Assembly (NCBI RefSeq): GCF_028198165.1
Contig: NZ_CP116339.1
Coordinates: 4,037,001-4,101,000 of the forward strand
Source of the DNA: Pseudoxanthomonas sp. JBR18
Lineage (GTDB): Bacteria > Pseudomonadota > Gammaproteobacteria > Xanthomonadales > Xanthomonadaceae
Length of the DNA: 64,000 nucleotides
Direction: 5' to 3'
This document shows positions 55,502 to 60,200 of this stretch, in pieces. The notes under the pieces are model-generated. The model did no database searches, was not told where the DNA came from, and saw nothing but the letters and a program-made list of their open reading frames with translations. Numbering within the stretch: position 1 is the first letter of the stretch; each line of letters opens with the position of its first letter. The position numbers and the translations under genes are program-made.

Positions 55502-58500
55502 TCAGGGCACCACGACCCGCACCTTGGCGGGCAATGCGTTGAGACGCAATTCGTTGCCGTCCCATTTGGCCGCCTTGCCGTTCACCAGTGTCTTGCCCGG
55601 CACGCTGGGATATGGCCACTGCAGCACCAGCCCGCCCTTGGGCAGCGTCATCCCGGCCGGGACATCGAGCTGCAGCTGTCCGTCCACGCGCTTGAGCGCA
55701 TAGGAGAGCTGGCCCTGGGGCGTGCGCAGCCCCTCGATGGCGATGCCCTGCCCGTCCAGCCACGCCGCCGGGATGCCCGCGGCCAGGACGAAGCTCTGGT
55801 CCTGCTCGCGGCTGTAGGCAAACATGTCCAGCGCGGTGCGCACGAAGTCCGAGCCCACCCAGGCATGCGGCAGATCGCCCAGGAAGAACGGCTTGCGCGG
55901 GGTATGGGAGACGACCTCGGCCCACTGGTTCCACGCCTGCGGGGTGCGATGGCCGAAGAAGAACTTCACCGCCGCGTCGGCACGCGCGCGCCAGCCCAGT
56001 CGCACGAAGGCCGACACGTTGCGCCACTCGTAAGGCGTGTAGTCCTTCCACGCGCGGGTGCCGTTGGCGCGCGCTTCGAATTCGCGCCAGTAACGCTGGA
56101 AGGTATTGTCCAGCTGCGGCTGCGGCAGGTTGGCCTGCTCCCCGGCTGGCGCCAGGGCGATGGTGGTCGAGGTGGAATCGAAGTCGCCCAGCTCCACAGA
56201 TCCCGGAATGTAGTCGATCTTGCGCTCGCGCATGGTCGCCTGCAGCGAGGCCATCAGATCGCCATGAAACTGATCGCGCGAGGCGGCCATGCGCTTGGCG
56301 TCCTCCGTCTTGCCCAGCGCCGTGGCGATCTGCACCGCGTCCTTGTAGCCACGCAGTGCCCAGAAGTCATCCCAGTACGAGTGCACCGGCTTGGCCGAAT
56401 AGCCCTCGTGGCTGATCGACACCGGCATCATCCCGTAGAAGCCTGGGTCTCTGGCCTTGTTGGCCTCGGTGCGCTCGGACAGGCGCAGCTTCTCCATGTA
56501 GCGGTAGGCGCCCTCCACATGCGGCCACATGCGCCGCAGGAACGCGGTGTCCCCGGTGTAACGCCAGTAGTCGGCGATGGCGAAGATCAGCTCGCCATGG
56601 CTGTCGTTCTCGGGCACCGGATCGCTGCCGCGACGGTCCACGCAGCACGGCACCATGCCGTCCTTGAACTGGTAGGGCGCATACCAATCGACGAACTGGC
56701 GCGCGACTTCCGGGCGCCCCATGCGCAGCAGCCCCTCGGAGATCATCGCCCCGTCGCGGATCCAGCTGCGCCCGTAGGAACGCGTCCCCGGCTGCAGGCG
56801 CGGGCCCACGCGCGAGATCAGCATGTGCGCGGTCGCGGTGCGCAAGGTATTCACCAGCGCCTGGCCGGCCGCCGGCACAGTGAACCGCACCTGGTCCAGC
56901 TTGTTGCGCCACGCCGCGGCCACCGCGTCCTGACGAGCCTGCGCGCCACATGCCGGATCCGAGGAGGCCTGCGCACAAGCCGGCATGCCGGTCAGCGGAA
57001 TGCGCAGGTCGAACTCGCGCGCCTCGCCCGGCGCCAGATGCACGTCGTAGACAAAGGCACCGGACGCCAGTCCGGTCTCGTCCACCACCTCGGTGCTATC
57101 TGGCAGTGCACCGCGGGCCAGGTGCTCGGCGGCCATGCCGCCGTCGAAGGTGCTGGCAAAAACGGCCGAGGGCACCTGCGAGGCGAACACCCGAGGACTG
57201 CCGTTCACCTCGGCGGTCCGGCCGGCGATGGACAACGTGTCGATGCGGCTGATGCCGCCCTGGGTATTGAGGAACTGCGAAGGCGGATTGACCTGGAACG
57301 GACGCACCGCCAAGGCCAGCCGATAGTCGTGCGCCGTCTTGCCGGGGTTGTGTAGCCGATAGCGCACCACCAGCTGCGAGTCGGCCGGCGTTCCGTCCGC
57401 GAAGGCCGTCGTCTCCAGCCCCAGTTCCGGCGTGGTCCACTGCACGCTGGGGATGGGCAGGTCTCCATCCTGCAGCGACTGCGCCTCCTTCACGTCGGCC
57501 CAGGTGTTCATGCGCCCGTCCACCGAGACGAACGGCTCCACGCTGAAACCGCCACGCGCGACCTCCACGGCCCCGTCCTCGCTGATCAGCCCCTGCTCGG
57601 TTCCGCTGTCCAGGCCGACAATCGTCCAGTACGGCTGTTCGTTGCGGAACCCGCGCGGATACCAACCTCGCGGCGCGGCGGCCGCGACCGCCTTGACCAC
57701 ATCGTTGGGCGTGGCCGAAAACGCCAGTGGCAGGACCTGGAGTTGGGCCAGGCCGAAGGAGTCGGCCGGGCCCTGCGCCGGCATCAGCCGCACGTAGCGC
57801 GCCTCGGACTCCGGCAGGGCGACCCAGTCGGTTCCGCCATCACCTCCAACGACCGCACGCGCATCGCGCCAGTGCAGGCCGTCATCGGACAGCTGGATCA
57901 GGTAGTCGGAGGCGTACTCGTCAGGTTTCCACACCAGCTTGAGCCCGCCGAATTCCCGCGGCTTGTGCAGGTCCAGGGTCAGCTGTGGGGCAGTGGCCGC
58001 GTCGAAGTCCGCATACCACGCCGTGTCGGAATTGCCATCGATCGCCATCGGCGCCTCGCTGCCCGCGTTGGACACCGAGGCGCTGGCCGAACCAGTCAAG
58101 GGCGAGGTGTCTTCCGGCGGCAGCTGGGTGAAGGTCAGCGCATCGAAACACACCGAGCCCTTGCCACCGGCATTGTTGTAGATGGTGAATTCCAGCCTGG
58201 CGCTGTGCCGCAGCACCGGGTCCTTGCCCGGACCCCAGGCCTTGTCGATGTGACGCTTGCGGTAGGTCACCTCGGTCCAGGTCTTCGGAAACTCGTAGCG
58301 CGTGCGGTTGACCCACCACACGTTGTCGCCAGAAGCGTCGGTCAACTTGAACTGCAGGTCGTTGGCCGGCGAGTCGCCCCGCAGCTTGAAGTCGAAGCGG
58401 TAGTTCTGCGGATAGTCCAGCTCCAGGGTGCGCTGCAAGCCGGCATAACCGGACACGCCGTTGTAGTCGTACTCCAGGCACAGCGCCTTGCCGCCATCCG

Positions 58501-58678
58501 GACCCGTCACCGCGCGCAACGAGGCGCTCACCTGATTGGAGGTCACCACCTTCCATGACGACGGATCGTCGAAGCTGTCCAGCACCCGCGTCTGCGCCAG
58601 CGCCGGGATCGCCGCCCCTGCCAGCAGGCCGAGTGCGAGAACGGAGGAAGACACGGGAACGGAACGCTTGTCAGTCAT
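55502..58678 (-). CDS. Secreted discoidin-domain six-hairpin glycosidase
   Basis: 1058 residues. A signal peptide (1-29, ending PALA) is followed by a carbohydrate-binding beta-sandwich (about 30-190), a discoidin/F5-8 domain (about 195-315), a linker beta domain and a C-terminal (alpha/alpha)6 toroid (about 620-950) with SYGRSWIRDGAMISEGLLRMG, PENDSHGELIFAIADYWRYTG and an acidic residue set fitting a glycosidase. The exact family was not recognised. It sits at the 3' end of a sugar-importer operon, after the tandem array, and would cleave glycans outside the cytoplasm. Confidence 0.8.
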   Translation of the reverse strand: MTDKRSVPVSSSVLALGLLAGAAIPALAQTRVLDSFDDPSSWKVVTSNQVSASLRAVTGPDGGKALCLEYDYNGVSGYAGLQRTLELDYPQNYRFDFKLRGDSPANDLQFKLTDASGDNVWWVNRTRYEFPKTWTEVTYRKRHIDKAWGPGKDPVLRHSARLEFTIYNNAGGKGSVCFDALTFTQLPPEDTSPLTGSASASVSNAGSEAPMAIDGNSDTAWYADFDAATAPQLTLDLHKPREFGGLKLVWKPDEYASDYLIQLSDDGLHWRDARAVVGGDGGTDWVALPESEARYVRLMPAQGPADSFGLAQLQVLPLAFSATPNDVVKAVAAAAPRGWYPRGFRNEQPYWTIVGLDSGTEQGLISEDGAVEVARGGFSVEPFVSVDGRMNTWADVKEAQSLQDGDLPIPSVQWTTPELGLETTAFADGTPADSQLVVRYRLHNPGKTAHDYRLALAVRPFQVNPPSQFLNTQGGISRIDTLSIAGRTAEVNGSPRVFASQVPSAVFASTFDGGMAAEHLARGALPDSTEVVDETGLASGAFVYDVHLAPGEAREFDLRIPLTGMPACAQASSDPACGAQARQDAVAAAWRNKLDQVRFTVPAAGQALVNTLRTATAHMLISRVGPRLQPGTRSYGRSWIRDGAMISEGLLRMGRPEVARQFVDWYAPYQFKDGMVPCCVDRRGSDPVPENDSHGELIFAIADYWRYTGDTAFLRRMWPHVEGAYRYMEKLRLSERTEANKARDPGFYGMMPVSISHEGYSAKPVHSYWDDFWALRGYKDAVQIATALGKTEDAKRMAASRDQFHGDLMASLQATMRERKIDYIPGSVELGDFDSTSTTIALAPAGEQANLPQPQLDNTFQRYWREFEARANGTRAWKDYTPYEWRNVSAFVRLGWRARADAAVKFFFGHRTPQAWNQWAEVVSHTPRKPFFLGDLPHAWVGSDFVRTALDMFAYSREQDQSFVLAAGIPAAWLDGQGIAIEGLRTPQGQLSYALKRVDGQLQLDVPAGMTLPKGGLVLQWPYPSVPGKTLVNGKAAKWDGNELRLNALPAKVRVVVP

Positions 58679-58733
58679 GGAAACTCGCCGGATAACGTCG
58701 GGAATGCGGAACTAGGCTGGTACAAGTGCTGCG

Positions 58734-58758
58734 GTCACGGCGTGACAGTGTGGTCACG
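58734..58758. promoter_or_regulatory. Three GTCACG half-sites
   Basis: GTCACG-G-CGTGAC (58734-58746) is a perfect palindrome, and CGTGAC is followed after six bases by GTCACG (58753-58758), a second inverted pair. The cluster lies between the tandem array and the glycosidase gene, 56-80 bases before its start, where a regulator could bind. Confidence 0.4.
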
Positions 58759-58763
58759 CGGCA

Positions 58764-59357
58764 GCGCAAGCGACTGGCTTCGGTCTCGTCGTGCTGCCTG
58801 CCATGGCGGGACATACGACTTCGGAACGTCCGGCCCGGCCATCCATGGCCGGGCGTTCGGGCGTCCGCGCGGCAGTGCCGCGCAAGCGGCTGGCTTCGAT
58901 CGCACCACACTGCCTTCCATGGCGCGACGCATCGGCTTCGGAACGTCCGGCCCGGCCATCCATGGCTGGGCGTTCGGGCGTCCGCGCGGCAGTGCCGCGC
59001 AAGCGGCTGGCTTCGATCGCACCACACTGCCTTCCATGGCGCGACGCATCGGCTTCGGAACGTCCGGCCCGGCCATCCATGGCCGGGCGTTCGGGCGTCC
59101 GCGCGGCAGTGCCGCGCAAGCGGCTGGCTTCGATCGCACCACACTGCCTTCCATGGCGCGACATACCGGCTTCGGAACGTCCGGCCCGGCCATCCATGGC
59201 CGGGCGTTCGGGCGTCCGCGCGGCAGTGCCGCGCAAGCGGCTGGCTTCGATCGCACCACACTGCCTTCCATGGCGCGACATACCGGCTTCGGAACGTCCG
59301 GCCCGGCCATCCATGGCCGGGCGTTCGGGCGTCCGCGCGGCAGTGCCGCGCAAGCGG
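58764..59357. repeat. 117-bp tandem repeat array, five units
   Basis: Landmark GAACGTC recurs at 58824, 58941, 59058, 59175 and 59292, a fixed 117-base period. Unit starts (GCGCAAG) are at 58764, 58880, 58997, 59114, 59231, with a partial sixth at 59348. The first unit is 116 bases and diverged; units 2-5 are nearly identical. Each unit holds CCCGGCCAT-CC-ATGGCCGGG, flanked by outer arms GAACG/CGTTC, and the palindrome GCGCGGCA-G-TGCCGCGC. All six reading frames are free of stops. The array starts seven bases after the permease stop (minus strand) and fills the gap to the glycosidase. Confidence 0.95.
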
Positions 59358-59363
59358 ACGCCC

Positions 59364-60200
59364 TCACCCTTTCACGCTGCCGAGCAGGAGGCCTTGGATG
59401 TAGTAGCGCTGCAGCAGCAGAAACAGCGCCAGCACCGGGACCACGGTGACCACCGCGCCGGCCATCATCATCTCCACGTCCATGATGTGTTCGCGCGAGA
59501 GCGAGGCCAGGGCCACCGGCAAGGTGTAGTGACTCTGGTCGGTCAGCACGATCAGCGGCCACATGAAGTCGTTCCACGCCGCCATGAAGGTGAAGATCGA
59601 CAGCGTCACCAACACCGGCTTGAGCATCGGCAGCACGATCTGGAAGAAGATGCGCATCTCCCCTGCCCCGTCGATGCGCGCGGCTTCGAGCAGCTCGTCC
59701 GGGATGCTGCGCGCGTACTGGCGCACCAGGAAGATGCCGAACACCGTCGCCAGCGCCGGCACGATCACCCCGCCATAGCTGTTGACCAGGTGCAGCTGCT
59801 TCATCAGCAGGAACAGCGGCAGCATGGTCACCTGCGCGGGAATCACCAGCGCGGCCAGCAGGATCTGGAAGATCCGCTCACGCCCGACGAAGCGCAGCTT
59901 GGCGAACGCGTAGCCGGCCATGGTGTTGAACAGCAACGAGCCCAGGGTGATGGCGATCGAGACGATCAGGCTGTTGACGAAGTTGCGCGCCATGCCGGTG
60001 CGCTCGAACAGCGCATGGTAGTTGGCCAGCGTCGAGGCGCTGGGCAGCAGCGGCGGCGGAAACCGACTGGCCTCACCGGCCGGCATGAATGAGACCGACA
60101 CCATCCACGCCAGTGGCGCCAGCGCGATCAATGCGATCAGCAGTAGCGCGCCGTTGACCAGCACCGTGTTCCAGCGGCTGCCCCCGACTTCGTGGCTCAT
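59364..60200 (-). CDS. ABC sugar transporter permease, MalG/AraQ type
   Basis: 278 residues with six hydrophobic segments. The EAA loop reads EAARIDGAGEMRIFFQIVLP, the contact for the ATPase. It fits the inner permease of CUT1 importers. It is encoded 46 bases after its partner permease. The stop lies seven bases before the tandem array, so any transcript reaching the glycosidase must cross the array. Confidence 0.93.
   Translation of the reverse strand: MSHEVGGSRWNTVLVNGALLLIALIALAPLAWMVSVSFMPAGEASRFPPPLLPSASTLANYHALFERTGMARNFVNSLIVSIAITLGSLLFNTMAGYAFAKLRFVGRERIFQILLAALVIPAQVTMLPLFLLMKQLHLVNSYGGVIVPALATVFGIFLVRQYARSIPDELLEAARIDGAGEMRIFFQIVLPMLKPVLVTLSIFTFMAAWNDFMWPLIVLTDQSHYTLPVALASLSREHIMDVEMMMAGAVVTVVPVLALFLLLQRYYIQGLLLGSVKG

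Follow-up and report, generated by a model that had tools for sequence, protein, structure and literature searches.

The repeat array that separates an importer permease gene from a glycosidase-like gene in Pseudoxanthomonas sp. JBR18 consists of five tandem copies, amplified locally, of a structured element of about 115 bp that is dispersed in the Lysobacteraceae. The best reading of this element is that of a palindromic insertion element which settles at Gly-stop codons, adding to the host gene a stop-adjacent hairpin and a pair of RsmA-type sites. Both the array and the element family are real, and the family appears to be undescribed, as our literature search found no paper describing the element or linking CsrA sites to such repeats. 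The window referred to below is the whole stretch of 64,000 nucleotides that was analyzed around the array.

The array and its units

Tandem Repeats Finder, run on the window, places the array at 58764-59357 (minus strand, the gene strand here) with a period of 117, 5.1 copies, 96% matches, 0% indels and a score of 1055, and the six other rows that it returned range in period from 15 to 57 and in score from 51 to 125. This agrees with an earlier note on this sequence, which had placed a five-unit array here, and the landmark spacing of 117 bases four times over on which that note relied is recovered from the hairpin-B landmarks along the array (117, 117, 117, 117). The flanking genes are also as the note had them, namely an importer permease gene (BPD_transp_1; 59364..60200) and, downstream of the array, a glycosidase-like gene (F5/8 type C, GDE_C; 55502..58678), both on the minus strand, with the array filling nearly the whole intergenic gap in one transcriptional direction. 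Upstream of the importer permease lie a second permease, a solute-binding protein and a putative glucoamylase. Between the array and the glycosidase start, at 58734-58757, there is a stretch rich in dyads (minus-strand sequence GTGACCACACTGTCACGCCGTGAC) that may serve the glycosidase gene as an operator or promoter element.

On the gene strand, the element begins with a head, GTGAG or GTAAG, followed by hairpin A (two stems with a small bulge), hairpin B and a block C. With the units numbered from the permease side, unit 1 has its GTGAG head at 59363..59367, and the TGA within it at 59364-59366 is the permease stop codon. Hairpin A of the same unit, with its full stem, spans 59327..59363 and has a predicted energy of -29.6 kcal/mol; hairpin B spans 59301..59322 with an ATGGAT loop and the site CANGGANG at 59308-59315; and block C spans 59263..59274 with an ATGGAA loop and a site at 59265-59272. 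The RsmA-type candidate sites recur in unit 2 (59148..59198; B at 59191-59198, C at 59148-59155), unit 3 (59031..59081; B at 59074-59081, C at 59031-59038) and unit 4 (58914..58964; B at 58957-58964 with one stem mismatch, C at 58914-58921). Unit 5, the leftmost in the window, has a candidate site at B only (58840..58847), its C block falling outside ANGGAN, and a partial copy of the hairpin-A core, read from the sequence, closes the array at 58754..58773. All of these features lie on the minus strand.

Units 1 and 2 differ at 1 of 117 bases and units 3 and 4 likewise at 1, with 3-5 base differences between the two pairs. The divergent end unit that the note had set against near-identical inner ones is unit 5, which stands at 91% by alignment and shows 36-37 differences when compared without gaps, a figure that stems from changes in its distal half together with a 1-base shift there. 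The inner units retain only the upper stem of hairpin A (-16.7 kcal/mol), the lower arm being gone, and the simplest history is therefore one of repeated duplication of a segment running from inside hairpin A to the element tail. As such, the tandem amplification proposed in the note stands, and unequal recombination or slippage would fit as the means by which the array grew.

The note had also held that arrays with such large units are uncommon in the family, for which we found no support. The family genome G285 has two five-unit arrays and one three-unit array of the element (118 bp x 5.3, at an xerD end; 107 bp x 5.2; 118 bp x 3.0), and G235 has two shorter ones (117 bp x 3.1 and x 2.2). 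Loci with such arrays outside the window, with periods of 107-118 bp, are L362, L363 and L353 of G285 and L328 of G235. Some relatives have a partial second hairpin-A core about 117 bp downstream, at the element end. As a possible cause of the 117-bp period we looked for a terminal direct repeat. A score of at least 10 was reached by 17 of 103 presumed single copies, against 10 downstream and 3 upstream controls out of 115 each, a weak test because arrays were present among the singles, some of the 17 included, as well as in the downstream control.

A dispersed family in register with stop codons

A BLAST search with a single unit as the query returned partial relatives at other places in the source genome and in 27 of 61 relatives. 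To search more widely we used a covariance model, R1, built from 26 copies that were seeded via a regular expression on hairpin B, so that the B loop is favored in the model; block C was no part of the seeding expression but belongs to the model with which the later sets were obtained. At an E-value of 0.001, R1 gives at least 16 matches in the source genome, five of them being the array. The note's alternative of single units scattered at high copy as an ordinary REP family is thus half borne out, in that the family is dispersed but low-copy here, with at least 11 matches outside the array. At the same threshold at least 36 of the 38 genus genomes contain the element, the number of matches per genome running from 0 to at least 75, the highest count, of matches of all kinds, being that of G035. 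At an E-value of 1e-5 it occurs in at least 196 of 247 genomes and at least 47 of 54 genera of the family, and five other family genomes hold at least 41, 34, 13, 48 and 33 copies. Many of the copies in G035 (L238-L248, L250-L252) belong to a shorter, 79-bp subtype without GGA loops, which sits in a larger repeat that seemingly has inverted ends (GCTGGGGGTGC ... GCACCCCCAGC). Related hairpins were also seen beside tRNA-like sequences at L052 and L055, in genomes from other families of the order.

Ten of the 80 named loci that surround the orthologous permease have the element at the permease end, the carriers being Xanthomonas bonasiae, Xanthomonas sp. XNM01, P. spadix and several Luteimonas and Lysobacter relatives. 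At many of the Stenotrophomonas and Xanthomonas loci among the 80, the stop codon is close to the following start or overlaps it at GGGTGA.

The fusion of element head and stop codon is not particular to the permease. From the 93 genus loci we set aside 14 that are of the 79-bp subtype and 15 that lack the head motif, and of the 64 evaluated a called gene ends near the head in 34, with 28 of these using the TGA of the element at the same exact base. In G285 and G235 together, a gene ends at one identical base in 29 of 53 cases and elsewhere in 4, the remaining 20 having no called gene end nearby. The head hexamer GGGTGA is present in 41 of these 53 cases as opposed to 13 of 285 background gene ends, some of which are themselves filled sites. 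The genes upstream of elements include ones that we take, from their translations, to be gspF, pstB, xerD, thiS, thiG, rtcB, rpoA, malate dehydrogenase and lipA. Copies also lie in frame inside HrpA and an aldo/keto reductase, and another forms the tail of CcmA. No preference for positions inside operons was found, the ratio of co-directional to convergent next genes being 25:7 in the genus and 17:10 in G285 and G235, against 30:12 in the window.

A flanking duplication score of at least 20 was reached at 6 of 93 loci and in 2 of 400 cross pairs, so target duplication is no universal rule, and at most loci no duplication was seen. One of the six is itself a tandem array, and the other five have duplications of 66, 48, 47, 21 and 29 bp (L231, L152, L177, L207 and L202, respectively). 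The ruvC-ruvA junction is filled in the source genome and in G007, with the ruvA start duplicated, and empty in G009, G004 and G017, with the genes overlapping. At L231 and L386 the same antisense insertion lies at the end of a regulator-like gene, with the 66-bp flanking duplication in G015, and it is also present in G235, which belongs to another genus. A different repeat, rich in units of the GGGATTGGGGATTGG or GGGGACCGGGGACC type, occupies two of the permissive spots of the element in other species (L291 and L304 for HrpA; L264, L271 and L286 for ruvC-ruvA), and in two species it lies in frame within HrpA.

In kind, the element is closest to YPAL and to REP sequences, and the tests made do not place it in either. 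YPAL (RU-2) of Yersinia has internal inverted repeats, as the element does, variable target duplications of 3-26 bp and a link to upstream genes (PMC2229807), and its representative sequence, inspected by eye, has two ANGGAT hairpin loops in a row (PMC2759123). The likeness is one of loop motif and description only, and YPAL is 168 bp long and found in Yersinia and Erwinia, whereas the present element has its head fused to stops and duplications of 21-66 bp, longer than those of YPAL, at 5 of 93 loci. GTAG-tagged REP sequences likewise have a short 5' head followed by a hairpin and lie mostly outside genes (PMC2817692, PMC3686654, PMC3733652). However, a REP is a palindrome of 20-40 bp with a GT(A/G)G head and usually exceeds 100 copies per genome, whereas the element has a GT(G/A)AG head, a length of about 115 bp, two or three hairpins, and copy numbers from 0 to at least 75 in the 38 genus genomes and of at least 13-48 in the five others. 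The source genome has five Y1 matches, none within 160 kb of its 16 element matches, and no REP-type hairpins were found beside these Y1 loci. Compared by eye, Y1 matches (E-value 0.001) and element counts show no parallel across genomes: G017, G031 and G006 have no Y1 match, yet carry at least 6, 5 and 6 elements, and G033 has eight Y1 matches and no element. On head, length, copy number and the lack of a nearby Y1 gene in the source genome, we rejected membership in the REP/RAYT system.

The SMAG repeats of Stenotrophomonas maltophilia resemble the array in being palindromic repeats multiplied head-to-tail at single loci together with flanking DNA, in numbers that vary among strains (PMC2613905). 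They have a sequence of their own (GTAGTGCCGGCC...), and the units at two described loci measure 50-103 bp (PMC2613905); SMAG membership was rejected, as the unit sequence does not fit the consensus GTAGTGCCGGCCGCTGGCCGGCA. Rickettsia palindromic elements are also found in frame in protein genes (PMC2229807), comparable to the HrpA copy, but they differ in host and sequence, and their description there gives no stop-codon register.

Compensatory pairing and GGA loops

Hairpin A keeps its pairing while its sequence varies. In the 26 seeds, 91.7% of cells pair, and we counted 75 two-sided changes, where shuffles gave 27.7 +/- 3.9 and slid versions no more than 18. For the element at the permease stop (13 sequences from different species), 98.5% of cells pair and there are 45 two-sided changes, compared with 14.5 +/- 3.0 in shuffles; two weaker pairing measures were reached in 28 and 47 of 500 shuffles. 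The arms at this site pair with their own partner at 0.98 and with the arms of other species at 0.65. The covariation falls mostly in hairpin A, and there are few G-U intermediates at the permease site, which palindrome correction or repeated insertion fits as well as stepwise selection does. Folding favors structure on the gene strand, with a z of -3.15, over the opposite strand, with a z of -2.21. At gathering score, Rfam returned no match in the whole window, and for 58600-59450 with E-values up to 1 it returned six weak matches, all under their gathering scores, with no Csr/Rsm family among them.

Loop conservation was assessed in 76 of 117 genus rows, the other 41 being left out as the 79-bp subtype or other variants. 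The sequence of the B loop is A (.97), N, G (.99), G (.97), A (.97), U (.92); that of the C loop is A (.97), N, G (.96), G (1.0), A (.96), N. Similar loop profiles were obtained for the 78 G285 and G235 copies. Both loops are ANGGAN in 57 of the 76 genus rows and in 63 of the 78, and B and C are 43-45 nt apart in 69 and 74, respectively. In 13 cases the stem of hairpin B is a different one but still perfectly paired; nine of these keep an ANGGAN loop, and two of the four exceptions look mis-called. At the named loci the exact motif occurs at B in 9 of 18 and at C in 9 of 18, with 5 of the 18 being short opposite-strand matches. Only 2 of the 41 variant rows have ANGGAN at B, and the loops are therefore not needed for spread.

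Within the window there are 17 ANGGAN hairpins with stems of at least 3 bp, compared with 8.85 +/- 2.8 in all in shuffled windows; nine are in the array, every one on the gene strand, and no other 600 nt of the window has more than two per strand. The plain word CANGGANG is mildly enriched, at 59 occurrences compared with 47.75 +/- 7.03. As such, it is clustering and strand, and not the word count, by which the sites of the array stand out.

A CsrA family match is present in the source genome (contig positions 3174319-3174474) and in 37 of 38 genus genomes. Two features expected of an RsmA/CsrA-binding RNA are present, namely several ANGGAN hexaloop hairpins (nine in the array) and an encoded cognate csrA. 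CsrB/RsmZ-type sponge RNAs carry many GGA hairpin loops on one RNA. The array differs from these in being a tandem repeat inside an importer operon with no Csr/Rsm Rfam match at E-values up to 1. A review gives RUACARGGAUGU as the SELEX consensus and describes RsmE as binding to a hairpin whose hexaloop is ANGGAN (PMC7652899). The stem of hairpin B has 8 bp; most of the SELEX hairpins have at most four contiguous pairs (PMC7652899). RsmU of Xanthomonas campestris, which we liken to the element by description, is an RsmA-binding RNA processed from a 3' UTR with three or four GGA motifs, though it is a single locus reported as limited to Xanthomonas, and with all four GGA motifs changed, RsmA binding and the effect of RsmU are reported to persist (PMC7694677).

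A candidate RsmA target and sponge

On balance, we think it probable that the array is an amplified, stop-fused palindromic element whose pairs of RsmA-type sites make the importer message both a target and a sponge. One copy is fused to the permease stop, with the GTGA of the element supplying or overlapping that stop. If the array is transcribed as part of the importer message, the strong hairpin A would follow directly on the stop codon, with hairpins B and C and their ANGGAN loops after it. RsmA dimers may then bind the paired loops, in what would be 3' UTR or intercistronic RNA, and hairpin A may slow ribosome release or block 3'-5' decay. With five units supplying nine RsmA-type sites, the importer transcript would act as both target and decoy for RsmA, and the permease:glycosidase ratio would be altered as a consequence. 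More tentatively, and with appreciable doubt, this could be one case of a mobile repeat that, family-wide, brings along a pair of RsmA/CsrA sites, inserts exactly at stops and so wires genes to RsmA via their 3' ends, with the amplified locus serving as an RsmA sponge of a strength that depends on the repeat number.

The element could instead be selfish DNA of a YPAL- or REP-like kind with no job as RNA, its hairpins serving mobility, its pairing maintained by palindrome correction, GTGAG being a target or an end, and the array arising by neutral slippage. We consider this unlikely, yet worth serious attention: the element is dispersed with burst-like copy numbers (at least 75 in G035), it has inserted in frame in HrpA and the aldo/keto reductase, five loci have flanking duplications of 21-66 bp (one of them checked against the empty ruvC-ruvA junctions of three congeners), G-U intermediates are few, and a subtype without GGA loops exists. 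However, the retention of A, G, G and A around a free N, at a near-fixed spacing, is not obviously required by DNA mobility, and no Y1 transposase gene lies within 160 kb of the element matches in the source genome.

It is rather improbable, in our view, that the element acts only as a stop-adjacent hairpin without RsmA, through ribosome stalling at termination or protection from 3'-5' decay as proposed for REPs near stops. Such an action would suit the start of hairpin A 0-1 nt past the stop, its energy of -29.6 kcal/mol and the concentration of covariation in it, and REPs within 15 nt of a stop codon down-regulate translation in E. coli (PMC12306157). Nevertheless, it would leave the ANGGAN loops of B and C and their spacing unexplained, and no stop codon lies near the inner units of the array, in which the lower stem of hairpin A is missing.

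An assembly artefact, which the note had raised, is very improbable even though near-identical units are hard to assemble, since the genome is a single contig of 4,596,555 bp and the units are distinguishable by point differences, and comparable arrays exist in G285 and G235. We rejected as hardly credible a repeat protein encoded by the long overlapping ORFs through the array, since several frames are open at once on both strands (196-433 codons), as expected from a stop-free unit of 117 = 3 x 39 bases, variation tracks pairing and loops and not codons, and elsewhere the element follows stop codons.

Should RsmA bind the loops, post-transcriptional wiring would have a source in a transposon-like repeat that spreads regulator sites to 3' ends across the family, and the copy number at one site would be an adjustable dose. 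The elements would also be candidates for RsmA antagonists in this family; in Xanthomonas, its best-studied genus, classical sponge RNAs of the CsrB/RsmZ type are reported not to have been found (PMC7694677). Even without RsmA, an element whose head bases are the stop codon of the host gene, and whose pairing is kept by compensatory changes across genera, offers a clean natural test of stop-adjacent hairpins.
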